A stretch of DNA of 26,391 nucleotides from a virus. Shown here in pieces: positions 1,435 to 26,129 of this stretch. A model generated the notes under the pieces. It saw only the letters and a program-made list of their open reading frames with translations. It was not told the origin of the DNA and did no database searches. Position 1 is the first letter of the stretch; every line of letters begins with the position of its first letter. The DNA is taken from positions 1 to 26,391 of the IMG/VR virus record IMGVR_UViG_3300006622_000154; one strand, written 5' to 3'. Both the position numbers and the translations under genes were made by a program.

Positions 1435-1900
1435 TCTTATTTTATACATTAGTAGCGATCAGTTACAAAAAGCTAAAGATGAACAGATAAAATTTGATAG
1501 ACAAAAGACTCACAACAAGTTTAAGTGCAAAACAAATTACATTGGGTATTTAGGTGAGCTTGTATTTAATGAATATTTAAAAACAACTCCGCACCAGTTT
1601 GAATGGATATGCTACACAAAGAAAGCATGGGATAGTCCTGACTTTATTATCAATGGTAAAAGTGTTGATCTAAAAACTACCTTTAGTGATTCTATGTGGA
1701 TTCAAGATGAAAAGTTTGACACTTATGTATATGCACAAATAAGTGAAGATGAAACAGAAATGGAAATTAAAGGTTGGTTATCTAAAGATGACATAACCAG
1801 TATGAAACAAAAAAAATTGTGTGAGTTGGTAAAAAGAGATAACAGGATAGACTATGTCTTTAATCAATCTTTAATGAAAGCATTTATGCCTAGTTATTAG
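1427..1900 (+). CDS. PD-(D/E)XK nuclease superfamily protein
   Basis: In this 157-residue protein the nuclease core reads G-E44-L-V-F-N-E-Y-L, then P71-D72-F-I-I-N-G-K, then D81-L-K83-T-T. This is the E ... PD ... DxK arrangement of PD-(D/E)XK nucleases, with metal ligands E44, D72 and D81 and catalytic K83. The size matches small phage members of the fold. Its start overlaps the Q-like gene by eight bases; its 3' end overlaps the converging late operon by 11 bases (1890-1900). It could process phage DNA, act in recombination or degrade host DNA; the sequence does not tell which. The nuclease assignment is fairly firm, the role is not. Confidence 0.7.
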   Translation: MPNLILYISSDQLQKAKDEQIKFDRQKTHNKFKCKTNYIGYLGELVFNEYLKTTPHQFEWICYTKKAWDSPDFIINGKSVDLKTTFSDSMWIQDEKFDTYVYAQISEDETEMEIKGWLSKDDITSMKQKKLCELVKRDNRIDYVFNQSLMKAFMPSY

Positions 1901-3929
1901 TAGCTCTTATAATGCCATTTTTAAGTTTAGCATCTGGGAATACCTGTCTAACTAAATCTAAATAGTCAGCAGCTTTTTTGTTTTGCTGAAATCCTTTTGA
2001 TGTAGCTTTACCTATACCATCACCTTTACCCTGATAAACACTAATAAATACTTCGCCATCTTTTTTAACTGCATCTTTAGCTTGTTTTAATACTTTGAGC
2101 TGGTTAGCTTCTTCTTCAATAACATTAAGTACATTGTTGATTGTAGCAGTGTCAGCATTACCGCCAGAGACTGCATTTACAACATTATCGTTGTGAGCTT
2201 TAGTTCTGTTAAATGGATCATAGACTAAATTAGTTGCATCAGATTTTTGTAACAACTCATCAGCGTTATTAAATCTACCACCACCTATATCAATATTGAC
2301 ACTACCTTTTTTAAATACACCTTCTTTATTTAGCTGTGTAAATGCAGCAGGAAGTTTGGCACTATTTATAGATGTGTCTGCGGATGAAATTGCTTGTACA
2401 GGTTCATCCCATACAGAGCTAGTATTTTTCTGTAGTAACCCACCTGAAACTGTAGGGTTGCTTGTGGTTGGGTTTGAGAAAGTTTCTAATAAACCTTGCT
2501 GTCTTAATTTTTCTTGTTTAACTCTTTGTTCAAATTTTGGCATAACACTATCTAGCCATTCTTGATCAAACTTTTGTGTTGGATATCCTCTTTCTACAGC
2601 ATAAGCATCACCACTTGTAGGTTTGCCTAAATTTCTTCTATTTTTGTAAAATTCAGGAAATAGTTCAGAGTGTGGCATTTGCACTTGCATTTCACCAACT
2701 TGCGTACCACCAATATGAGTATTGTAAGTTGGATGTGGCATATTTGGATTTGTAATAATCATATTGTCAGGATCTATTTTTCCAACTCTATATGCTGACA
2801 TCATGTTAGGTGTATTAATTAAATTTGGATCTGTGATTGCTTTTTTAATTGGTGCTATTTCAGGAAATCCCATATTTTGAAATTTAGCTTGGCTACCTAT
2901 TTCGTTAAATTGAGTTCGTAATGCACCACCCCCATCTGCTGATAATTGTGCTCTTGCTTGAGGATGATTGATACCTAACCATTCAGGTCTAACTTTTCTT
3001 AATGCATCATCAAACTCTTTAATTGATTTTTTAGGTAAATCAATAGATTTAATTTCTTGTAAAAATCCATCGGTTAACATTGTATTAAATCTTAAAGAGT
3101 CATGACCTGCTGTTGTGTATATGGTTGCAGGATTGTATCCTTCGTCTAATAAACCTTTTGCTTTGTTGGTTATTGTTGTAACTTGACCTTTGTTTGATGC
3201 CCAAATGTTGTCATTTATATCACCAAACCTAGCACCGCCATGTAAAGGCACTCCGTTTATTAACGGAACTCCATCTATTTCAGTTAAAGTTCCTACATTA
3301 GACCTATCGCCTTTTGTAGTTACACCTGCTAATTTTTGATTATATAAATCTTCAGGTGTTATTATCTTTGGTGTTTTTGTATTTTCAAATGGAACAATAA
3401 CCGAAGTCATATCATCAATAGGTCTTAATTTTGTAGTATCTACAGTTATAGATTTTCCACTGGCTAAACTTGGAGTTGTTAATGGATGTATAAGTCCTTG
3501 CTTAACCGCATCCTTTCTTGTCATTTTGTTTTTTACATTAGATATTACTTTTTTAGTTTTTTTAATAACTGGCTTTGCAACTTTACCTATGGCTTTGGAT
3601 GGATCAGCAGCACTTAACAACATTCCACCAGTACCTAAAGCTACATCACTATAGTTATTTTTTGCTGCACCTCTACCTGCCATTCTTCCCATGTCTTCTG
3701 TAAATGGCAATCCAAGTAAATCCATTACACCAAAGTTACCCTTGCTACCTGCAATAGATTTTGCAGCAGGGGTAGATACATACTTGTCTAAAAATCCGTA
3801 AACATTTTCTTGAAGTGACATATTTCTTGCAGTTCTTGGCTCAAATGCATGATCTAAATATGGCTTTCTGTTTAATGCCTGTTCTAATTCAGACTGCATA
3901 GCAATTTTTTCTATCTCGTCTAATGTCAT
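1890..3929 (-). CDS. Large phage protein with C-terminal class I methyltransferase-like domain
   Basis: This is a 679-residue, probably multidomain protein. Residues 1-140 have a Gly/Ala segment (about 95-115) and a Lys-rich stretch. Residues 170-465 carry a long conserved-looking region (TPEDLYNQKLAG near 191, HGGARFGD 230-237, IWASNKG 242-248, IYTTAGHDS 270-278, HPTYNTHIGG 399-408, ELFPEFYKNRR 422-432). I recall this region from large polyvalent and virion proteins of phages. Residues 540-675 look like an S-adenosylmethionine-dependent methyltransferase: DIGGG at 547-551 (motif I), an acidic end of the second strand at YDPFNR 570-575, NNVLNVI 598-604, and KKDGEVFISVYQG 622-634. It is the last gene of the late block. 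Its ATG overlaps the previous stop (ATGA). The target of methylation is unknown and activity is not proven. Confidence 0.65.
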   Translation of the reverse strand: MTLDEIEKIAMQSELEQALNRKPYLDHAFEPRTARNMSLQENVYGFLDKYVSTPAAKSIAGSKGNFGVMDLLGLPFTEDMGRMAGRGAAKNNYSDVALGTGGMLLSAADPSKAIGKVAKPVIKKTKKVISNVKNKMTRKDAVKQGLIHPLTTPSLASGKSITVDTTKLRPIDDMTSVIVPFENTKTPKIITPEDLYNQKLAGVTTKGDRSNVGTLTEIDGVPLINGVPLHGGARFGDINDNIWASNKGQVTTITNKAKGLLDEGYNPATIYTTAGHDSLRFNTMLTDGFLQEIKSIDLPKKSIKEFDDALRKVRPEWLGINHPQARAQLSADGGGALRTQFNEIGSQAKFQNMGFPEIAPIKKAITDPNLINTPNMMSAYRVGKIDPDNMIITNPNMPHPTYNTHIGGTQVGEMQVQMPHSELFPEFYKNRRNLGKPTSGDAYAVERGYPTQKFDQEWLDSVMPKFEQRVKQEKLRQQGLLETFSNPTTSNPTVSGGLLQKNTSSVWDEPVQAISSADTSINSAKLPAAFTQLNKEGVFKKGSVNIDIGGGRFNNADELLQKSDATNLVYDPFNRTKAHNDNVVNAVSGGNADTATINNVLNVIEEEANQLKVLKQAKDAVKKDGEVFISVYQGKGDGIGKATSKGFQQNKKAADYLDLVRQVFPDAKLKNGIIRATNN

Positions 3930-4339: not shown

Positions 4340-5080
4340 TTATATGGGTAAAGCCGAGTCTGATTTTATCTTTTCTATGGGGGTCTTCCCCTTTGACCAC
4401 TTCCCACAGTCTTGGCATTGAAATCTTTGATACTTGTTCGTCAGAGATAATATGACTCCTCTTTTTTGTAAATGATAACTTCCACAATTTGGGCAACAAG
4501 CTTCTTTAGTTTCTTGATTGTGATTTGGATGTACTCTTATCCATCCCTGTAATTTCTTATAAACTTCTTCAGTTAATTTTACATCATTAATATTGTATCT
4601 TTTCATCAACTTCCATGCTTTAGGATTTTTTGCCATACACTCAATCCATAACGGCATACCCTCATGAGAAGTTTTCATACCTATCCCAAGTAGCTGTGCC
4701 ACATAATCTAATTTATTACTAGCAAATCTAAACTTACCTCTTGCTGTTGTAAGTAGATCAATGTCTTTATATGGACTTGGCGGTGGTAATTTATGTATTA
4801 AAAATTCTTTGTTCAGCGTTGGCATATCAAACTTTTTACCATTATAAGTTATCACTGCATCAGCTTCATTCACTAACTCATGTATTTCTTTAATCATTTT
4901 TTTTGGAGTAGCATCATAAATACTAGAGAAAAAAGTTTTCTTTTTATCTAGCCACTTTGCTGCCCAACATAAAACTGTAGATGATTCTATAAGTTGATTT
5001 ATGCTAATGTTTTGCTGAAACAACCCCCAATGAAAACCTGTATGTGGACTTGTCTCTATATCTAATATAAGTATTTTCAT
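4340..5080 (-). CDS. DEDDy-type 3'-5' exonuclease with C-terminal zinc ribbon
   Basis: A GTG at 5095 could start the frame, but the ATG at 5080 has CAGG upstream and opens directly with MKILILDIETSP, the usual first strand, so I choose it (246 residues). Exonuclease residues are D7 and E9 (DIET), D85 (ITYNGKKFDMP), and Y162-x3-D166 (YNIND), the DEDDy arrangement of RNase H-like 3'-5' exonucleases, closest to YprB/RNase_H_2-type single-domain proteins. A zinc ribbon follows: C196-x2-C199 and C222-x2-C225. This would bind DNA or RNA and trim 3' ends. It is unusual among virion genes, but could act in DNA processing late in infection. Its ATG overlaps the stop of the upstream membrane peptide. 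Confidence 0.75.
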   Translation of the reverse strand: MKILILDIETSPHTGFHWGLFQQNISINQLIESSTVLCWAAKWLDKKKTFFSSIYDATPKKMIKEIHELVNEADAVITYNGKKFDMPTLNKEFLIHKLPPPSPYKDIDLLTTARGKFRFASNKLDYVAQLLGIGMKTSHEGMPLWIECMAKNPKAWKLMKRYNINDVKLTEEVYKKLQGWIRVHPNHNQETKEACCPNCGSYHLQKRGVILSLTNKYQRFQCQDCGKWSKGKTPIEKIKSDSALPI

Positions 5081-5199
5081 ATAAAAAACCTGCACAACAA
5101 AATAAAATAAAAAACAATCAAAGCAAAAGCTATCATTAAAAGTATAACTGTTGTTTTCACAAGTCTTTTAAATTTATTTGTTTCAATAAACCCAAGCAT
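5077..5199 (-). CDS. 40-residue single-span membrane peptide
   Basis: An ATG at 5199 opens a frame (MLGFIETNKFKRLVK...) with a basic N-terminal part followed by a continuous hydrophobic run at residues 16-36 (TTVILLMIAFALIVFYFILLC). It ends in a TGA that overlaps the ATG of the exonuclease. A GTG further in at 5157 would also keep the membrane segment. No strong Shine-Dalgarno is visible. The start overlaps the end of the other tiny membrane gene. The positive-inside arrangement (K and R before the span) suits an inner-membrane peptide with C-terminus outside. It might belong to a lysis cassette (holin-like), but no endolysin is adjacent. Confidence 0.45.
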   Translation of the reverse strand: MLGFIETNKFKRLVKTTVILLMIAFALIVFYFILLCRFFI

Positions 5200-5296
5200 A
5201 TAGTACACAAGCTATTATAGGTGTAATAGGTAATGCAAGAAATATAGCTATTGCTATAGCCATGCGTTTCATAAATAATTTATTTATGTCTTTCAT
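5183..5296 (-). CDS. 37-residue single-span membrane peptide
   Basis: An ATG at 5296 starts MKDINKLFMKRMAIAIAIFL, a short basic head followed by a hydrophobic span at about residues 13-36 that ends in AWVY. It begins just after the stop of the 690-residue internal protein and its end overlaps the next membrane peptide by 17 bases. A clear Shine-Dalgarno is missing; coupling to the upstream gene is likely. Two overlapping tiny membrane genes in a block otherwise without gaps are hard to explain as chance. Holin, spanin-like or injection-related roles are possible, none shown. Confidence 0.45.
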   Translation of the reverse strand: MKDINKLFMKRMAIAIAIFLALPITPIIACVLYAWVY

Positions 5297-5302
5297 AATA
5301 TT

Positions 5303-7375
5303 TTATATTTGCAATGCTGTTTCTGATATGTTTGGTAAACTTAAAGTTCCTACACCAGCAGTACCTTGTTTAATCATGTCAAACATTTTAGTTTTAGCAA
5401 GTTCTTGATCATATTGTTTTAAAACATTCTGGATTATTATTCTTTGTCTTTGAGGGTCAGCAAGTAACAAGTCTTTTTTTAATTCCTCTGCTACTTCTTT
5501 ACTCATACCAACACCTTCTTTAAGTTTCTTAATCACAGAAAAAATAATACCTCTCTTATCTGAACTATCACTAAATTCACTTAACGCATCTTCAACTTGC
5601 CTTCTGGCTGTTGGTGAACCACCTAAAATTTCACCTTGTGCTCTCTTTCTTTTTATTTGCATCTTTATCATTTTTTCAAAATCAGTAAATTCTTTTTCTG
5701 TCTTAAAAAACATTTTTAATGCAGCTCTAGTTCTTGGAGTGCCGAAGGTAACTCTTATTACATCCTGACCTTTGTTAATTTTATCGTACATTTCATTTAA
5801 CACACCAGACTTAAATGAAGATTTTTGAGATTCATTCATAGACTGAACTTTTCTTGCTAAATCTGCTGTATCGCTACGATAGAATTTTTTACCTTCATTA
5901 AAAGCAGTTTTTATATCCATAGCTTCGGAAAAGTTATCATTGGCTTGTTTATAAATTGGATTATTGTTTCTTGTAATGCCATCAAATAATTTTTTAGATT
6001 GAATTACTTCTCTACCTTGTGGATTTACTTTACCAGTTATATCTGTATTTTTTTCAATGATGTCATCTAAACCCATTTTAATTTTATGCAAATATTGTGT
6101 AGGTATTTTTTTCATTTTTCTTAACTGATCCCATGTAGGGTTTGTTTCGCCAGTTAAAGATAAATTTTTCATTTTATTAACATAGGATTCCCATGCTTCT
6201 TTTATTAAAGGTTGATCAAAAATATCTATATTATTTAATCTAAAACTACCTCTGTCTATGTTTACTTTATATGCTTCTGGATATAATTTTTTAGCTTCCT
6301 GATATTGTTTTTGATTTATTTTAAATATGTAATCAGAATCAACTTTATCTCCTTCAACACCCATAGCTTTGTTTAGTCTCTTTTGTGCATTTTCAGAAAA
6401 GACTTGCCTTGATTCGTCAATTGTTTCTTGTATTGCTTCAGATGATTCTGACTGTATAGTTGCTGCTTGTCTGCCTAACTTTGTTGTGCTCTTTTGCAAT
6501 TCAGCAATTTGTATATCATTTAATCCTAATCTTCTAGCTTCATCTAACTGTCTTTGCACTTCAATAGGGGTAATGTTTTGATCTGCTAAATTGTTAGCAA
6601 TTCTTTGTATTGCTTCTGTTTGTGCGTTTGGTTTTGTAAAACCAAGATTTTTCATTAAATTATTTATACCACTAAAACCTGCTTTAATACCTTGTCCACC
6701 ACCAATAAGTAAAGGCGGCACTATAGCACCCCCAAGTCCATACATAGCCATGCTACCACCTAGACTTGAGTCTCTGTTAGGGTCATATGCTCCTGCTCCT
6801 GCAAAAGCTCCGCCAGTGCCACCTATACCCATAAGTTTCATAACTCTTTTTGCAATGCTTGTGTCTTTGTTTGCTTGTAACCATTTACCAACTTTAGGAA
6901 ATTTTGTTATTGTAGCTCCAGTCAAAAATCCAGATGCTATGCCTGTTAAAATAGCTTCAACTGGTTTGTCTGCTCTATATGCTCCTTGCTGTTGCCTTAA
7001 CTCTTGAACATAAGTATCGTAATCTGCTTTACCAATTGCAGACATAACTTTAGCTTCAATTTCATCACCAAACTCAAAAGTTGCTGTAGACCCTACATTT
7101 CTAACAAGTTCTTTTACTGGATCATACCCAAGACCTACCTCTGGAGTATCACCTTGTTTTGTTCCACGAAATTGTTTTTTTAATAATCTGCCTTCATTTT
7201 CTTGTGAGTTGTATCCACCACTATTTAACAACTGCTCATTTTCTACAGTTGGCGATGTAAATAACTTTTGCCTTTCTTTAGCAACTCTTTGTTTTATTTC
7301 ATCACTATTTGGATCAACATTGTCAGGAACATTTCTTATTGTAATTCCATCTTTTGTTTGAATGTCATATGGCAT
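5303..7375 (-). CDS. Internal virion (DNA-ejection) protein, 690 residues
   Basis: The N-terminus (MPYDIQTKDGITIRNVPDNV) followed by a helix with DEIKQRVAKERQK is a start I associate with large internal proteins of podoviruses. Residues 95-150 contain TFEFGDEIEAK ... YVQELRQQQGAYR, and Gly/Ala-rich hydrophobic stretches follow at 141-156 and 181-240, which could insert into membranes. The rest is long, helical and Lys/Glu/Gln-rich. This matches ejection proteins that leave the capsid before DNA and help form a channel through the envelope. No lysozyme or transglycosylase catalytic motif is visible, unlike T7 gp16. AGGA stands ahead of the ATG. It is the last of four probable ejection genes. 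Confidence 0.65.
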   Translation of the reverse strand: MPYDIQTKDGITIRNVPDNVDPNSDEIKQRVAKERQKLFTSPTVENEQLLNSGGYNSQENEGRLLKKQFRGTKQGDTPEVGLGYDPVKELVRNVGSTATFEFGDEIEAKVMSAIGKADYDTYVQELRQQQGAYRADKPVEAILTGIASGFLTGATITKFPKVGKWLQANKDTSIAKRVMKLMGIGGTGGAFAGAGAYDPNRDSSLGGSMAMYGLGGAIVPPLLIGGGQGIKAGFSGINNLMKNLGFTKPNAQTEAIQRIANNLADQNITPIEVQRQLDEARRLGLNDIQIAELQKSTTKLGRQAATIQSESSEAIQETIDESRQVFSENAQKRLNKAMGVEGDKVDSDYIFKINQKQYQEAKKLYPEAYKVNIDRGSFRLNNIDIFDQPLIKEAWESYVNKMKNLSLTGETNPTWDQLRKMKKIPTQYLHKIKMGLDDIIEKNTDITGKVNPQGREVIQSKKLFDGITRNNNPIYKQANDNFSEAMDIKTAFNEGKKFYRSDTADLARKVQSMNESQKSSFKSGVLNEMYDKINKGQDVIRVTFGTPRTRAALKMFFKTEKEFTDFEKMIKMQIKRKRAQGEILGGSPTARRQVEDALSEFSDSSDKRGIIFSVIKKLKEGVGMSKEVAEELKKDLLLADPQRQRIIIQNVLKQYDQELAKTKMFDMIKQGTAGVGTLSLPNISETALQI

Positions 7376-18624: not shown

Positions 18625-19005
18625 TTATATTTTTCCTATATTTTTGTTAACATAAAACATTCTTGAGGTCATGTAAGCACCACAAGGTGTTCCAAAATAA
18701 CCAAGATACTGTGACTTTCCATTCATACTTCTTTGAGATACATAAGGTCTTGCTTTACGACCTTTCTTTATACAAAAACCCTTTCTAGCACAATCCATCT
18801 TTTCTTTATTTTGCTTTTGAGTTACTAACGCTAGGTTTTCTAACCTATTGTCATCTTTTTTACCATTAATATGATGTATTTGCATTCCTTTAGGAATATC
18901 CCCATTAGCTTGAGTCCAAACATATCTGTGTTCTCGCCACAATTTCCATTTGCCATCTTGTTTTACATTCATCATAATATAGCCATCTGTACCTATGTAT
19001 GCCAT
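18625..19005 (-). CDS. HNH endonuclease with AP2-like C-terminal domain
   Basis: Residues 24-62 form an HNH_3-type core: REHRYVWTQANGDIPKG, then H44-H45-I-N47-G and D-N53-R-L-E-N57-L. The C-terminal part (about 85-118) with KARPYVSQRSMNGKSQYLGY then FGTPCGAY resembles an AP2-like DNA-binding domain, a known companion of HNH homing endonucleases. Such enzymes nick or cut a DNA site and spread themselves between phage genomes. The gene fits with no spare base between the small conserved gene (TAA then ATG) and the adaptor gene. It is likely a free-standing mobile gene in the late operon rather than a virion component. The core residues appear intact. Confidence 0.8.
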   Translation of the reverse strand: MAYIGTDGYIMMNVKQDGKWKLWREHRYVWTQANGDIPKGMQIHHINGKKDDNRLENLALVTQKQNKEKMDCARKGFCIKKGRKARPYVSQRSMNGKSQYLGYFGTPCGAYMTSRMFYVNKNIGKI

Positions 19006-19340: not shown

Positions 19341-20297
19341 TTAAACTGCCAAGTCAGCAACGATACCATGTGCTTTCTCGTTAGACACTTGTAAAGTGTA
19401 CTCATTTAACATCTGATGTTTTTCACTGTCACCAGTTTTAGCTAATAGGTTTGACTCAAATGGTCGCAGTGTTGCAATAGCTGCCATTGTTGGGTCAAGC
19501 ACTAATGCTTGTTCTGCTGGAGTGTCATCAGCAGTCATAAATCTGTCAGGTACAACAGATAAAGTACCGAAGTCTGATAAGTAAACATCAGCAGCACCAA
19601 TGATTGTAGTTGCTGCATTTTTTGGAGCTTCATAACGCTGTGCTGCAATACCTGCAAAAGTAGATACTACTTGCTTTTGTGTAGGTGGAACAACCAACAT
19701 GGTTGGAGTACCGCCATTTTCAAATACAGACTTAACACACTCTTTAAGTTTGTCTTCTGTAAATGCAGAAGCAGAAGCACCTTCTGTACGAGTGTTGTTA
19801 CCATCCGCAGTTGTTGGTGCAACACCATCAGTCATTGTTACGAAGTTTGATTTTAACCATGTTTGGATAGAGCCAAGAAGTCTTGCAGAACCTGCTGCAC
19901 CTGCATCTTGAGCTACATTACCAAGAATAGTTTTTTCCATGTCTCGTTTTAGTTCTTGTCCTGCTTTAGCTAGTTGGTAAGCTGTTTCTGTCTTACGACC
20001 TGCTTTATCAACTGCATCAAGAGTACCTGATACATGAATTGTTTTACCTTGAATTTGTGTTCTGTTACCTACACGAGTTGTAGGAGTATCAGAAGCACCT
20101 GAAGCATCAGCACCCTCAAGTAAGCCATCTGCACTAGCTGCTGCTAGGTCATCAGTTTGCCATTCATGGTAAGTTGCTGTTGCTTTTGTTTTACCAATAG
20201 ATGAAACTACTGGTGTTTCTGTTGGTGCAATATTGAAGATAGTATCGCTTAAATCTTCTCTTTGACCAATCGCTGTATAAGTTCTAAATTCTGCCAT
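19341..20297 (-). CDS. Major capsid protein (SU10 major head / DUF5309 type)
   Basis: The 318-residue protein begins MAEFRTYTAIGQREDLSDTI, followed by NIAPTETPVVSSIGK, ATYHEWQTDDLA, NRTQIQGKTIHVSGTLDAVD and QELKRDMEKTILGN. This is the signature of the SU10 major-head family (DUF5309), a HK97-fold capsid protein. The middle (PTMLVVPPTQKQVVSTFAG) and the C-terminal part (LRPFESNLLAKTGDSEKHQM and EYTLQVSNEKAHG) agree with it. AAGGA stands ahead of the ATG. It follows the scaffold gene and is itself followed by a hairpin, consistent with high, separately tuned expression. No sign of fusion or internal insertion. Confidence 0.85.
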   Translation of the reverse strand: MAEFRTYTAIGQREDLSDTIFNIAPTETPVVSSIGKTKATATYHEWQTDDLAAASADGLLEGADASGASDTPTTRVGNRTQIQGKTIHVSGTLDAVDKAGRKTETAYQLAKAGQELKRDMEKTILGNVAQDAGAAGSARLLGSIQTWLKSNFVTMTDGVAPTTADGNNTRTEGASASAFTEDKLKECVKSVFENGGTPTMLVVPPTQKQVVSTFAGIAAQRYEAPKNAATTIIGAADVYLSDFGTLSVVPDRFMTADDTPAEQALVLDPTMAAIATLRPFESNLLAKTGDSEKHQMLNEYTLQVSNEKAHGIVADLAV

Positions 20298-20306
20298 TGT
20301 TTTTCC

Positions 20307-21311
20307 TTAAATAAAGTTTTCAAAAATGGCTGCTGCATCTCTAGCTGAACCAGATTGCTTTAGCCGTTTCATTTGTTTTTTCTGTATATCGGTTACAGTC
20401 TGCTTTACTTTAGCACCACCTTTTACAGTCTTCGGTGCTTTTGCGACTTTCTTTTTAACACCAGCTTTACCTGACATTAATTTGTCGTATTGTGCCGCTT
20501 TATGTAATACCAATACATGGCGGTGATCATAGACTTGAGATAATTCTTCGTCTGTGAATCCTGCCTTTTTGCCATAGCTACGAATGTCATTACGGACTTG
20601 TTCGCCTTTAGCTTTGTCTGAAAACTCTGGTAAGGATACTGCTAGTTTTTGTGCTTCTTCTTGTACAAACTGTTCTAATTGAGCTGCTCTTTCCGATTGT
20701 TGCTGTAGTGCAAGTCGTTGTTTTTCAGCTTGTATAGTTTGTAACTGTTCTTTCTTTTCGGTCATCTCTGCGACCTTAACTGAATATCCTATCGGGTCGT
20801 TCTCTTTCATTGCAGACAGATCTTCTGGAGTGTCATTGTTACTCAATAGAAATTGTTCTACTGCCTGTAATTTTGATGAATAATCATCTCTAACTTTTCT
20901 AGCTTCAATAATAGCTTTAGCTTCCTGCTCAATGACTTTACGCTGTTCGGCTACTTCTTGAGTCTTTTTAGTATAATCAGAGCCGAGTTGATAAGATTTC
21001 TTTAGCTCATCAAGGGTAACTTCTTTTTCTTCACCTGCTGCTTTTATGGTGAAAGTTTGTTCTTCCTCAACTACTTCAGGTTCTTCAACTTCGGATTCTT
21101 CTTCAACTTCTTCTTCGGCTTCATATTCAACCTCTGGTTCAGTTTCAGTTTCCTCTACTTCTTCAACTACTTCGGTTTGTTCTTCTACAACTTCTGGTTG
21201 CTCTGTGGAGTCCTCTGGTGCAGATAACATACCTTCAATTTGTGAAGCTGCATCTGTTACTGTTAGATTTCCACTTTCCGTTGTATCGGAAGTCATGGTT
21301 TCATCAATCAT
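20307..21311 (-). CDS. Scaffolding protein
   Basis: This 334-residue protein has an extremely acidic, Glu/Val/Thr-rich head (residues 33-85), a DELKKSYQLGSDYTKKTQEV segment near 105-125, long Gln/Glu/Lys helices (120-225) and a basic C-terminus (280-334) with KKKVAKAPKTVKGG and KKQMKRLKQSGSARD. An acidic, coiled-coil-rich protein with a basic capsid-binding tail directly before the capsid gene is the usual profile of a phage scaffold. AAGGA precedes the ATG at good spacing. The low-complexity acidic stretch creates a long Ser-rich open frame on the other strand that I do not consider a gene. Confidence 0.75.
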   Translation of the reverse strand: MIDETMTSDTTESGNLTVTDAASQIEGMLSAPEDSTEQPEVVEEQTEVVEEVEETETEPEVEYEAEEEVEEESEVEEPEVVEEEQTFTIKAAGEEKEVTLDELKKSYQLGSDYTKKTQEVAEQRKVIEQEAKAIIEARKVRDDYSSKLQAVEQFLLSNNDTPEDLSAMKENDPIGYSVKVAEMTEKKEQLQTIQAEKQRLALQQQSERAAQLEQFVQEEAQKLAVSLPEFSDKAKGEQVRNDIRSYGKKAGFTDEELSQVYDHRHVLVLHKAAQYDKLMSGKAGVKKKVAKAPKTVKGGAKVKQTVTDIQKKQMKRLKQSGSARDAAAIFENFI

Positions 21312-21362: not shown

Positions 21363-21593
21363 CTATATTATTTTCCATGCCTTGTCTTTGATATCATCGT
21401 CTTTTGCGATAGATTCAAAACGAGCCATGAGTTCGTTTATAACTTTTATTCTCATGTAAGCTGCTTCTCTTACTTCTTTTTCGTCATCATCAGAATTAAC
21501 AATCATATCCATTAATTCTTTTTTCATTGCTTCTACTTCGTCTAGTAGTTCCTGACTTTGAAGTAAGTTTCTAAATGCTTCTGATTTTGTCAT
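21363..21593 (-). CDS. Small helical protein between portal-side and scaffold genes
   Basis: The 76-residue product is highly charged and predicted by eye to form two long helices (SEAFRNLLQSQELLDEVEAM and REAAYMRIKVINELMARFES) separated by NSDDDEKE. AAGGA lies seven bases before the ATG, which overlaps the stop of the upstream gene. It could be an assembly chaperone or a minor head protein; the place is often occupied by such small helical proteins in marine podoviruses. Downstream, 21312-21362 is a true gap containing only the scaffold ribosome binding site and a weak stem. Confidence 0.6.
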   Translation of the reverse strand: MTKSEAFRNLLQSQELLDEVEAMKKELMDMIVNSDDDEKEVREAAYMRIKVINELMARFESIAKDDDIKDKAWKII

Positions 21594-22693
21594 TACCTTA
21601 TCCTTTGTAAAAATCTAGGGTCTTCTGCTGATGTAAGATCATTAGACATTAATAATCCACCAAGTCCAAGACCTGCCATCCCTCTAACTGCTATTTCCGC
21701 CATAACAGATGGGTCAGCTAATAAACTACCTACACCATTTACAACACCAGCACCTGTGTCTCCATATGCTTGTGCTTGTTGTTGATTAACATTACCTATA
21801 CTGTCCATTAATCCTTTAAACATACTTGGTTTAGGTTTATATTCTAGGTCTAGCTCATCAGCCATAAGGTCTGTTGATAGTATAGAACCAGCTCCACCAA
21901 TACCAGCATATTTAGGATTAAAGTGAGCTAATGGACTTCTAAATAACTCTGGCTTAAATGTTACAGTTGTTGTAGCTCTATTACCAACATAACTTTCTGG
22001 CTCTTTCATGTTAGTGCCAGTGTAACCCCTTTTCTTTATATTCATTTGTGTCATGAAATCTTCCATAACATTATGCTGACCTTTTTGTATTCTTTCTAGG
22101 TCTAATGGATTTACTTCACCAGTTGGAAAATGATTATCATACATCTTTGTCCATGTAGACTTATCAGGTCTTGGTGTCATTAAATCTTTAACATGGTCTG
22201 GGTTATTATAGTCAAAGTGTTTAGATTTATTAACAACCAATGGAAATGTATATCTACTATCTAACGGACTTACTTGTGCTGTCATTTCAGAAATAAATGG
22301 CTCATCAGAAGTATAAGTACCTTTGTTGTAATAAGTCCTTAAAGCACTATCATCAAATCCAATTAGATTTCCGTTAGCATCAAAATCACTATCTTTTAAA
22401 TCATCTAATGTTAAATACCTATCTCTATCAGACTTACCTGCTTTTTTCATTGCTTGATCTAAACCAGAAAAGTTTTTTTGCTTATCAAAGTTTATAAATC
22501 CATCAGCTTCAATACCTAACTTACCATCAAGGTCAGTTGTATGATATTCAATGTTATCTAAATCAAACCCCATAGCTCTAGCTCTATCTTGAGCAGTATT
22601 ATTAGCTGGTAAACCTAAACGCTTAACCGCTTCTAGTTGAGCTTCTTTATCTTTTTTTAACCATTCTTTTAAATATGTAAAATAACTAGCCAT
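21593..22693 (-). CDS. Putative ADP-ribosyltransferase-like virion-region protein
   Basis: This 366-residue protein overlaps the portal gene by eight bases. Residues 34-55 read AQDRARAMGFDLDNIEYHTT. YLTLDDLKDSDFD (93-105) and YTFPLVVNKSKHFDYNNP (148-165) follow, then a block ending TVTFKPELFRSPLAHFNPK (243-261). The series A-x-x-x-G-F-D ... Y-H-x-T ... Y-L-T/F-T-D ... P-V-V/L ... V-x-F-x-P-x-x-x-R-S-x-x-A-x-F-(D/N)-P is the layout I know from ADP-ribosyltransferase-like domains in phage polyvalent and MuF-linked proteins. The acidic residue often seen just before the V-x-F strand is Thr here, so activity is uncertain. A hydrophobic run at 330-349 (MAEIAVRGMAGLGLGGLLM) could contact membranes. 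An unrelated minor head protein is the alternative. Confidence 0.45.
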   Translation of the reverse strand: MASYFTYLKEWLKKDKEAQLEAVKRLGLPANNTAQDRARAMGFDLDNIEYHTTDLDGKLGIEADGFINFDKQKNFSGLDQAMKKAGKSDRDRYLTLDDLKDSDFDANGNLIGFDDSALRTYYNKGTYTSDEPFISEMTAQVSPLDSRYTFPLVVNKSKHFDYNNPDHVKDLMTPRPDKSTWTKMYDNHFPTGEVNPLDLERIQKGQHNVMEDFMTQMNIKKRGYTGTNMKEPESYVGNRATTTVTFKPELFRSPLAHFNPKYAGIGGAGSILSTDLMADELDLEYKPKPSMFKGLMDSIGNVNQQQAQAYGDTGAGVVNGVGSLLADPSVMAEIAVRGMAGLGLGGLLMSNDLTSAEDPRFLQRIR

Positions 22694-24869
22694 TAGGGGA
22701 TGCCAAGTTTTGTATTTTTTCTAAAGAGTTAATAATCTCTTTTGTTTTATCTACATCAGTTTTTTCTTTATCGTTCTGTGCTTTTTGTGCTAATTGCATT
22801 TCTTTTAATGCCATCTCTTTTTCAAACTGCATTTGTTTCTGTTGTAGCTCTAACATTTCTTTTTGTACTTTTAATTCTAACTCTTGTTTTTCTATTTCAA
22901 GTTTAGCCATATCTGATTGCATCTTCATCTCTGCTTTTTCTTTTTCTACTTGTGCAAGAATTTTAGCTGATTCAGTATTTGGATCTGCTTGTTGATTTTG
23001 TGCTTGTTGTTGGGCAAGTTGTTGTGATTGCTGTTCTGTTAAGTCTTTGATAAATCCAGACTCATCTTTAAATCCTGCCATGTTTACAAATTTAGCAAGT
23101 GTGTCTCTATACTGTTTAAGACTTACTAGAGGATTGTTTAATCCATATTGTGTTAGCATCTGCTCTTGTTTATCCAAGATCATTTGCATTACACCTAGCT
23201 GTTCTGTTTTGCTACCAGTTCCTAGTCCAACATTAACTGTAACATTGTATTGTGTGTCCCACTCTCTAGGATTCATAGGAACAAATTTGTTATTGATCTT
23301 AATGATTCTTTCTTTGTCTTGGTACTTACATAATAGATGCAAGATGCCTTTCATAAGAGAACTAACCCCTGTGTCTGCAAAGATACGAGCTATCAGTTCT
23401 AGTTTACCACCTGCTGCATTACTCATTGCACTGACTGCTGTAGCTGTTACATTCTGTAAGATATTAGGATCTAACCCTTGTGATGTTTCAGTCACTCCGC
23501 TTCGTTTAGCTTGTATAGAATCTAGGTATTCAAGCATAGGGAATGATTGACCTGCACTAGATTGCACTGCTAATGGTACTAATGCATTTGGGTTTTTAAT
23601 ACGAACTACACCACCTGCTGTTGATGTAAGTAAGTCATCCAAGTTAACCTGACCTTCTACTGCACCAACTCTGTAGTTATTTGTTAGGTATAGATTGTCT
23701 AGCATCTGTCTTGTGATAGTAGACTTAATTAGTTGTAGGTCTACAGCTCTATCTGCTAGTGACTGACCAAAGAACTTGTGTGGTATTGGGAAAGGGCAAA
23801 CGCTATGGAAGGGAACATAATCACATTCTTCAGAAGATAATATTTGATTACTTGCATAACAAACTCTATGTAGCTCTGCTATGCCATCCTTATCCATATC
23901 AGTCTTTACATAACACTCGTAATACTCAACCACTTCCATTGACTCATCACTAGAATCATTAGTATTAAAAGGTTGCTCACCTGCACCATATCTCGCTACT
24001 CTTTCTGGAGTTGTGTCTAATGTATCACCTGTCGCTAAAGAGTAAACTACATCTTTATCATAACCCATTGTAATAAGTTGTGATCTTGTCACTAACTTTC
24101 TTTGTGCTACAAAGTCAGCATCTTCTATAGTTACTGCTCTCTTGTCTATTAAAAATTCTTCTGGAGCTACATTTTCTATTTTAATTTTAGAATAGTTTTT
24201 TGTTCGCTTACATTTAATGTTGTAATAGATATTGATGATCGGTGGAGTTTCCATCATTACTGGCATACCCATTTCATCTATTAATGGCTGTCCCATTTGA
24301 TCTACTGCTGGTTGTGGATCTTGTTCTATAACTTCTTCTACTTCTTCCTGCTCAACGATTTCAACTTCCTCGTCTTGCATGATCATAGTCAGTTCATCTT
24401 CTGTTAGATTCTGATACTTCTCTATGCTAATGTCTTTATTATCATCCCAATATGCTTTAACAACTCCAACCTTTTGACACAATGCATCCCAGAACCAAGA
24501 GTTCATTATTTCAAAGCCATTGTTATCTTTATAGAATACATGGTTAGCCATTATTGTTGCTTGTTCTGCCATTTCTGCATCGCCTTCGTTTACTGGCTCA
24601 AACACTACAGCATTATTACTTTGAGTAAAAACTTTTAAGATGCTTGGGAGTGCTCCATCAACTACCTCTGCCACTTCACCAGTGACTATCTGGCTACGAC
24701 CTTCTACCTCATTGCCATAAGGTTCTCTCATATAGTATTCAAGAGCTGTCTGTCTCTCTTTCATTGTTTCAGTTTCAATAAATCCTAAACTGTCATCAAT
24801 ATGAGACTCAACGATATTAAGAATTTCTCTATCGTCTTCTGAATTTGTTCTTTTGTTTTCGTATGCCAT
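22686..24869 (-). CDS. Portal protein (P22-type)
   Basis: The 727-residue protein starts at an ATG that directly follows the terminase stop, with GGAT upstream. Early helices (ALEYYMREPYGNEVEGRSQI and TGEVAEVVDGALPSILKVF) and the core (DRAVDLQLIKSTITRQMLDN, AKRSGVTETSQGLDPN, TATAVSAMSNAAGGKLELIA) match P22-type portals, the 12-fold ring through which DNA passes. An acidic insertion at 166-185 is followed by an imperfect repeat (DQMGQPL / DEMGMPV, 190-204). Residues about 610-720 form a very long Gln/Glu/Lys helix, as expected of a long C-terminal barrel like that of P22. It sits next to TerL as usual. Confidence 0.85.
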   Translation of the reverse strand: MAYENKRTNSEDDREILNIVESHIDDSLGFIETETMKERQTALEYYMREPYGNEVEGRSQIVTGEVAEVVDGALPSILKVFTQSNNAVVFEPVNEGDAEMAEQATIMANHVFYKDNNGFEIMNSWFWDALCQKVGVVKAYWDDNKDISIEKYQNLTEDELTMIMQDEEVEIVEQEEVEEVIEQDPQPAVDQMGQPLIDEMGMPVMMETPPIINIYYNIKCKRTKNYSKIKIENVAPEEFLIDKRAVTIEDADFVAQRKLVTRSQLITMGYDKDVVYSLATGDTLDTTPERVARYGAGEQPFNTNDSSDESMEVVEYYECYVKTDMDKDGIAELHRVCYASNQILSSEECDYVPFHSVCPFPIPHKFFGQSLADRAVDLQLIKSTITRQMLDNLYLTNNYRVGAVEGQVNLDDLLTSTAGGVVRIKNPNALVPLAVQSSAGQSFPMLEYLDSIQAKRSGVTETSQGLDPNILQNVTATAVSAMSNAAGGKLELIARIFADTGVSSLMKGILHLLCKYQDKERIIKINNKFVPMNPREWDTQYNVTVNVGLGTGSKTEQLGVMQMILDKQEQMLTQYGLNNPLVSLKQYRDTLAKFVNMAGFKDESGFIKDLTEQQSQQLAQQQAQNQQADPNTESAKILAQVEKEKAEMKMQSDMAKLEIEKQELELKVQKEMLELQQKQMQFEKEMALKEMQLAQKAQNDKEKTDVDKTKEIINSLEKIQNLASPNG

Positions 24870-26129
24870 TTATACTATCCATTGGTTGTTTTGTTTTAAT
24901 GGTTCATCCCAAGACGAATCATCGTTATTCATGCTATCTACAACTGCACAAGTGTATCTCCATGCATCTGCACCATGACTGTATTCATCATGTAAAGGTG
25001 CTTGTGGCTCTTGTGTTGTTTGATTAATACTTCTTCTATAATTCTTTAAACACTCTATTAATCTTTTTGTTTTATCCTGATCAAAGTAAGCTCTATCAAA
25101 TGTCATCCTTGCTAACTTGATCCCAGTCTCTATATTTGCTTTTGGTATTACTTCTGTATTCCATCCGAGTCGCTGCATAATTTCTTCAGCGGAAGTTCCG
25201 TACTTAAAGTCTTTATTCCTAGCATCATGTGGCAGATACATCGTACCCCAATTATGACCTAGCTGCTTCAGTTGATCAGAATAACTATCTAAAGTTCTAT
25301 GATCATCTTCAATATAATCTATGATCCTTATCTCGGATAAATTTCTTTGGCACAAGATAATAGACATTGAATCATTCCACCCTAGATCCATAACTATATG
25401 AGTCTTTAGTAATGCATCTGGATGTACATTAGTGATCCTTCCAGACTCTTGTGCTGCTCTTATTTCATTATGATAGATAGCACCATCCGCAGCAGCTTTA
25501 GTATCACCTTCCCATATGTTTGCATAGTCTTCTGGGTTGTTAATGCTACAGCGTTCTCTCTCTAGCTCTAGCACCTTTGGGAAAAAAGGATTGTCTGTAT
25601 AGTTAACCTTTTCTACCCTAGCGTTACTTGGTTTATTAATAATAAATCTTTTATAGGTGTCATCTGTATCCATGTAAGGATTAAATGTTACCCAGATCTC
25701 ACTGTTAGGTTTCCTGATCGTAGGTATTAAAATGTCCCATGATCGTTTACTAATGTTTTGTGCTTCCTCACACCAGACAATATCAACACCCTCAAAAGAC
25801 TTAATACTTTCTACAGTGTTTGTTGCAAGTCCTGCAAAGTTAAATTCAGTGCCATTCTTACCTCGTATAGCGTTCTCTACGACCTCGTAGAACTCTCCCA
25901 GACCTAATGCTTGTATCTGGTCTTTAAGCAGCGTGTGAACTGATTGCTTAATAGACTTCTGGACTTCCCTTGTGCATAAAACTCTTAATGGCTTTTCAGC
26001 TCCCATCATTAGTAAAGCTCTTGCATAGCTCCAAGACTTACCAGAACCTCTCCCACCATATGCTACCTTATATCGGTGTGGTTCAAATAAATACTTTAGT
26101 TTACTTGGAAACTTCTGGGTCTGTTGCAT
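24870..26129 (-). CDS. terL: Terminase large subunit
   Basis: This 419-residue packaging motor has an ATPase domain with Walker A GGRGSGKS at 25-32, Walker B VDIVWCEEA at 115-123 and the coupling motif TFNP at 148-151. The nuclease domain has D248 (VMDLGWND), HDARNKDF near 301-308 and D381 in HDEYSHGADAWRY. It is of the Terminase_3 / PBSX-like type and of normal length. It cuts concatemeric DNA and drives it into the procapsid through the portal encoded next. The ATG lies 29 bases inside the upstream terminase small-subunit frame, with no strong ribosome binding site, so coupling is likely. Confidence 0.9.
   Translation of the reverse strand: MQQTQKFPSKLKYLFEPHRYKVAYGGRGSGKSWSYARALLMMGAEKPLRVLCTREVQKSIKQSVHTLLKDQIQALGLGEFYEVVENAIRGKNGTEFNFAGLATNTVESIKSFEGVDIVWCEEAQNISKRSWDILIPTIRKPNSEIWVTFNPYMDTDDTYKRFIINKPSNARVEKVNYTDNPFFPKVLELERERCSINNPEDYANIWEGDTKAAADGAIYHNEIRAAQESGRITNVHPDALLKTHIVMDLGWNDSMSIILCQRNLSEIRIIDYIEDDHRTLDSYSDQLKQLGHNWGTMYLPHDARNKDFKYGTSAEEIMQRLGWNTEVIPKANIETGIKLARMTFDRAYFDQDKTKRLIECLKNYRRSINQTTQEPQAPLHDEYSHGADAWRYTCAVVDSMNNDDSSWDEPLKQNNQWIV

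Follow-up and report, generated by a model that had tools for sequence, protein, structure and literature searches.

The window analysed here, the whole 26,391-nucleotide stretch of IMG/VR record IMGVR_UViG_3300006622_000154, belongs to a small tailed virus of aquatic bacteria. Among its head genes lies a gene whose product we read, with reasonable though not high confidence, as a divergent effector of the phage polyvalent kind: a protein with an ADP-ribosyltransferase (ART) fold that is probably packaged in the virion, ejected, and active in NAD-dependent modification of the host, and whose central domain is a replaceable cassette held between constant caps. We infer the ART fold, NAD chemistry, packaging, and target of this protein. 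What the sequences show is the gene and its slot, which is empty in one relative, a central domain homologous to ART cassettes, exchange of that domain among related phages, and purifying selection.

The effector gene has an ATG start and runs from 22693 down to 21593. An earlier note on this DNA had placed it between the portal and scaffold genes and overlapping the former. The first 8 bp of the reading frame do overlap the portal gene at its 3' end, and the position is right, although the scaffold gene does not adjoin it because a 76-aa ORF (21363-21593) intervenes, the start of which is overlapped by the stop codon region of the effector. Wherever the flanks are present in the IMG/VR loci, the order of this slot is portal, effector or effectors, 76-aa ORF, scaffold, capsid, and then the next genes. 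The features of the protein and its surroundings are collected in Table 1.

Table 1. Coordinates in the window of the effector gene, the parts and predicted active-site positions of its product, and the neighbouring head genes.
Feature	Position	Strand	Basis or remark
Effector gene	21593..22693	(-)	366 aa
Constant N-terminal cap, residues 1-43, helix plus NNTAQDRARAMGF	22565..22693	(-)	about 90% shared with close phages carrying other middles
Variable ART-like middle, residues 44-250, the swapped cassette	21944..22564	(-)	alignment
Constant C-terminal cap, FRSPLAHFNPK...LMADELDLEYK, residues 251-287	21833..21943	(-)	alignment
Conserved glycine-rich, mildly hydrophobic tail, residues 288-366	21593..21832	(-)	alignment
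His51 of YHTT, predicted strand-1 NAD-site histidine	22541..22543	(-)	invariant in 20/20 aligned cassettes
Tyr93 of RYLT, probable strand-2 position	22415..22417	(-)	alignment
Glu231 of NMKE, end of strand 4	22001..22003	(-)	best conserved acid of the slot family, 14/20
Thr241-Thr242, where many ART-PolyVal proteins carry the strand-5 Asp/Glu	21968..21973	(-)	alignment
Portal gene, SU10 type; upstream border of slot	22686..24869	(-)	Pfam SU10_portal, E 1.4e-216
76-aa ORF; downstream border of slot	21363..21593	(-)	locus comparison
Head scaffolding protein	20307..21311	(-)	PHROG scaffolding, E 3e-58
Major capsid protein, SU10-type	19341..20297	(-)	Pfam

The gene is optional. The phage Venkman, whose isolation host was an OM43 methylotroph, resembles the window closely in its head proteins (79% identity for the portal, 82% for the scaffold, and 81% for the capsid protein) and carries no effector; its portal gene directly overlaps the homologue of the 76-aa ORF. 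DNA similarity between the two stops 14 bases before the effector ATG and restarts at the ATG of the next gene. The effector is also missing from the related phage records ctXG6705 and HTVC106P, and its absence from the closest isolate means that it is not essential. A role for the 76-aa ORF as a dedicated immunity partner was rejected, as this ORF is present also where the effector is absent. From kinship with Venkman, and by kinship only, the host of the window phage is likely to be a Methylophilales relative. Among the head and tail genes of the window stands a separate gene for an HNH endonuclease (18625-19005, minus strand) that is missing at this place in Venkman, and a similar endonuclease in L005 is located before the portal gene. 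The terminase large subunit of the window (24870-26129, minus strand) is 34% identical to its counterparts in L016 and Venkman despite portal identities of 79 to 81% (loci compared, L016 and L029), so that the terminase, too, seems to have been exchanged between phages; it is 92% identical to the counterpart in L014.

Scans of IMG/VR gave 19 distinct loci with homologues in the same slot, the window's own record counted among them. Two of the sister cassettes exceed the curated cut-off of 31.2 bits for ART-PolyVal (PF18760), those of L008 (36.9 bits) and L040 (32.2 bits), while L004 (27.8), L006 (27.7), and L016 (25.2) score below it. Cassettes can also be multiplied: L003 and L007 each have two consecutive ART cassettes, with a tail of the type of residues 288-366 confined to the last of the array, L008 holds two ART units within one reading frame, and L024 has two separate units. 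Other domains share the slot. A PBECR5 nuclease-like protein precedes the ART cassette in L009 (4404-5966, E 1.4e-14), and an LPD23 protein follows it in L006 (6996-8084, E 7.9e-7). Both are families of phage polyvalent proteins, and their presence indicates that the slot is a general effector site, as judged from these predicted domains. L002 carries the window-type ART as part of a fused protein of 1828 aa. Effectors of this slot are found among virion genes and in association with further polyvalent domains, namely PBECR5, LPD23, and those of the L002 fusion. The last 200 residues of that fusion, a methyltransferase, share 60% identity with the C-terminal 200 residues, a PF13489 methyltransferase, of a 679-aa protein encoded elsewhere in the window (1890-3929, minus strand); parts of one polyvalent protein would thus appear to be split into separate genes in the window.

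The window-type middle turned up in just four IMG/VR records, the window's among them and the other three being L002, L003, and L015, and none was found in the bacterial genome contigs searched. The L015 copy (4941-5859) is split over several frames, through either an assembly error or decay into a pseudogene. Four further loci (L063, L068, L070, and L073, in ORFs near 3500) have an NNTAxDRA cap and an RSRFAAFDP cap around a middle that lacks an ART profile match, which may be either a very divergent ART or another domain set between the same caps.

Comparison of close relatives shows that the middle moves independently of its surroundings. Against L019, the portal is 88% identical, the scaffold 92%, the N-terminal cap 91%, and the C-terminal cap 95%, yet the middle cannot be aligned; in the DNA, 86% similarity extends up to codon 44 and resumes at 91% from codon 242. 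The pattern is reversed against L002, where the portal is only 54% identical and the middle 83%, and where DNA similarity in the effector gene is confined to codons 43-279. Synonymous divergence between the window and L002 is 0.22 for the middle and saturated for the portal, and the corresponding values for the pair of L019 and L025 are 0.24 and 2.47. These opposite patterns, together with the synonymous divergences, show that the middle is exchanged horizontally and that the exchange ends inside the caps. The middles have dN/dS values of 0.13-0.49, and the window protein has values of 0.39-0.47 against two homologues, both in the range of purifying selection; such selection on the middles argues that the proteins are in use. 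A small recent exchange was seen within the tail as well: L019 (1770-2684) and L020 (70-984) come from phages that are 98.9% identical over 3.7 kb, and their effector tails differ over a short stretch, KPKPSMFKGLMETIGNV in one and KPKVSAWDSLMNTIGGV in the other.

These observations bear on the simplest alternative, that the product is a common head protein, structural or for assembly, and resembles ARTs by accident. Its position, its constant caps and tail, and the lack of a direct ART match for the window protein would all fit such a role. However, the gene is precisely absent from Venkman, a complete isolated phage, the middle is exchanged while the head proteins are not, and the middles of the sisters are ARTs. 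We regard this alternative as very improbable.

Searches with the window protein alone gave no match in Pfam (E up to 1), PHROGs, PDB sequences, or 50,697 phage records, and a search of PDB sequences with the family profile returned chance matches only. Having neither a profile match nor the strand-5 acid, the protein is not a member of PF18760 by a strict sequence test; it is a divergent relative and most likely works as a member does. The earlier note had also suggested a link to MuF toxins, which was not borne out, as Pfam finds no MuF domain and the protein has zero Pfam or PHROG matches of any kind. Its reading of the motifs fared better. The order that it gave holds (YHTT at 50-53, YLT at 93-95, VVNK from 153, TTTVTFKP from 241, and FRSPLAHF from 251), and the pattern goes beyond chance, for the relatives align with it column by column in that order; most of their middles begin with YYHGT or similar, as in ART-PolyVal. 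In pairwise scores, the central domain stands 4.8-8.1 z units above shuffles for 6 of 11 sister cassettes. The hydrophobic run that was reported near the C-terminus is present but mild: the best 19-residue Kyte-Doolittle mean, at residues 330-348, is 1.44, and a transmembrane segment is not supported, since this maximum falls below the usual value of 1.6 for a transmembrane helix.

The case for an ART fold passes through the sisters. A profile of the window-type middle, freed of its caps, aligns with sister middles in hhalign at E 7.9e-10 over 86 columns and 3.3e-10 over 70 columns, against E 0.22 for the control comparison with scaffold proteins, all being E-values of single comparisons. The match spans the second half of the middle; assignment of strands 1 and 2 relies on the caps and the multiple alignment. 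By this profile evidence the window middle is homologous to the sister cassettes. The sister in L016, whose phage has a portal 81% identical to that of the window, gave a predicted model with the ART strand order (pLDDT 71.6, most of the core near 85-95). In BFVD, the best match to this model has an E of 7.9e-13, and the matches include proteins named ART-PolyVal. No single match in the PDB is strong (best Foldseek E 0.023, Z up to 7.5), yet nearly all are ART-superfamily folds, including AcrIF11, RES/MbcT toxins, NatT, diphtheria toxin, exotoxin A, tankyrases, ParT, and part of an ejection protein from a cyanophage. The sister cassettes are thus ARTs, and since the window middle is homologous to them, we infer that it too has the ART fold. 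The ART-like character proposed earlier is accordingly supported by same-slot sisters that match PF18760, one of which folds as an ART, but not by the protein's own AlphaFold model, which was built from 17 sequences, has a pLDDT of only 42, and found no match in a fold search.

The predicted active site is conserved in part. His51 corresponds to the strand-1 histidine of ART-PolyVal, for which the published active-site pattern is H-Y-D (PMC5512222). In the alignment, Tyr93 falls on the strand-2 tyrosine of L016, although the alignment there is uncertain and many sisters have Ser, Phe, or Trp instead; on the better alignment, RYLT is preferred as strand 2 over the later YTSDEPF. The site differs from the R-S-E arrangement of the T4 Alt family, in that the strand-1 residue is His and not Arg. 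At strand 5, the window protein has Thr241 and Thr242 in place of Asp. The earlier note was correct that Thr replaces the usual acid and proposed that the protein may be inactive or divergent. The acid is absent, but most sisters also lack it, and an acidic residue at this position is found in few slot cassettes (L007, L009, and L040). Its absence is therefore a trait of the slot family and not the mark of one dead copy, and we read the alignment as pointing to a family whose active site is shifted or relaxed, which is not proof of inactivity. Glu231 might substitute for the strand-5 acid.

Alternatively, the protein could be a pseudoenzyme or non-transferase with an ART fold, which might bind NAD or some protein partner, or do no more than hydrolyse NAD, with no transfer of ADP-ribose. 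The threonines at the acid position, the lack of Asp or Glu in most slot cassettes, and the variable strand-2 residue agree with this, as does the presence of RES-type toxins, which are NAD-degrading, among the best fold matches of the L016 sister. The invariance of His51 and the retention of Glu231 in most cassettes (Table 1) speak against it, and AcrIF11 demonstrates that active ARTs are possible with poorly conserved identity of active-site residues (PMC12421852). We consider the loss of transferase activity unlikely.

For an active effector, we propose the following course. The protein would be made late, together with the head proteins, and would probably enter the capsid and be ejected with the DNA. 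Its NAD-binding ART domain may then modify a host macromolecule, or consume NAD, in favour of the phage. Recombination inside the caps would exchange the ART cassette among related phages, as in polymorphic toxins, and presumably serves to alter the host target or to follow its changes; that middles are exchanged suggests variation from host to host in the target or in a counter-measure of the host. For polyvalent and MuF proteins whose genes lie among head genes, packaging and injection are presumed, on the pattern of T4 Alt (PMC5512222, PMC9503650), and phage ARTs placed among head genes have been read as packaged (PMC9503650). By analogy, the slot position and the occurrence of PBECR5 and LPD23 in the slot of relatives are consistent with a virion-carried effector as the most likely reading. 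The late position in the head operon fits equally well an ART that is made late and acts unpackaged inside the infected cell, in superinfection exclusion, assembly control, or counter-defence at the portal or terminase, and protection of the packaging machinery has been offered as an alternative (PMC9503650). The same polyvalent neighbours and the L002 fusion point instead to delivered effectors, and action from within the infected cell seems to us improbable, to much the same degree as the loss of transferase activity. More broadly, we would suggest, as a possibility held with less than even confidence, that the slot is a polymorphic locus for virion-delivered effectors in phages of streamlined aquatic bacteria, in which capped ARTs and other effectors recombine, sometimes in tandem, and in which the strand-4 Glu replaces the strand-5 acid.

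Phage ARTs encoded beside head genes are an established kind, presumed to be injected, and their targets are mostly unknown. Close phages that differ in one exchangeable ART, together with Venkman, which lacks the gene and has a cultured OM43 host, form a natural experiment on the effect of the cassette on host range or counter-defence. The precise limits of the caps additionally provide a handle for finding divergent effector domains that profile searches miss, such as that of the window. ART effectors near head genes have been described (PMC9503650), while a limited literature search found no published description of the slot or of ART swapping between constant caps, which is weak evidence of novelty.

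Among the closest known systems is ART-PolyVal (PF18760), which comprises ART domains found in polyvalent proteins of phages (Iyer et al. 2017, PMC5512222). Its model is matched by the sisters, and shared features are the strand-1 His, the probable strand-2 Tyr, the neighbourhood of head genes, and fusion to a large protein in L002. In contrast, the window protein is unmatched by the model, has Thr for the strand-5 Asp and a small insertion after strand 1, and stands alone, its swapped ART middle set between constant caps. Two further systems came from fold comparison. AcrIF11, an ART anti-CRISPR (PDB 6kyf), is the best VIA-align match to the L016 model (Z 7.5 over 124 residues), but identity is about 7% and the data do not suggest anti-CRISPR activity. 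A stretch of the cyanophage A4 pre-ejectosome protein (PDB 9k3a_B), a virion ejection protein, aligns to the same model at Z 6.6 over 135 residues, which at Z < 8 is only suggestive; this is a very large internal virion protein, and a profile search of PDB sequences found no sequence match to it. With T4 Alt, a packaged and injected ART, the window protein would share the proposed delivery with phage DNA, but Alt belongs to the R-S-E clade (PMC5512222) and no sequence relation between the two was found. The MuF-linked polymorphic toxins of temperate phages (PMC5576092) likewise combine a constant part with an exchangeable toxin domain among head genes, whereas the window protein has no MuF domain, no immunity gene was seen, its caps flank both sides of the variable domain, and the examined part of the genome gave no sign of lysogeny genes. 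Exchange of the middle while both ends of the effector stay constant resembles the swapping of warheads by bacterial toxins.
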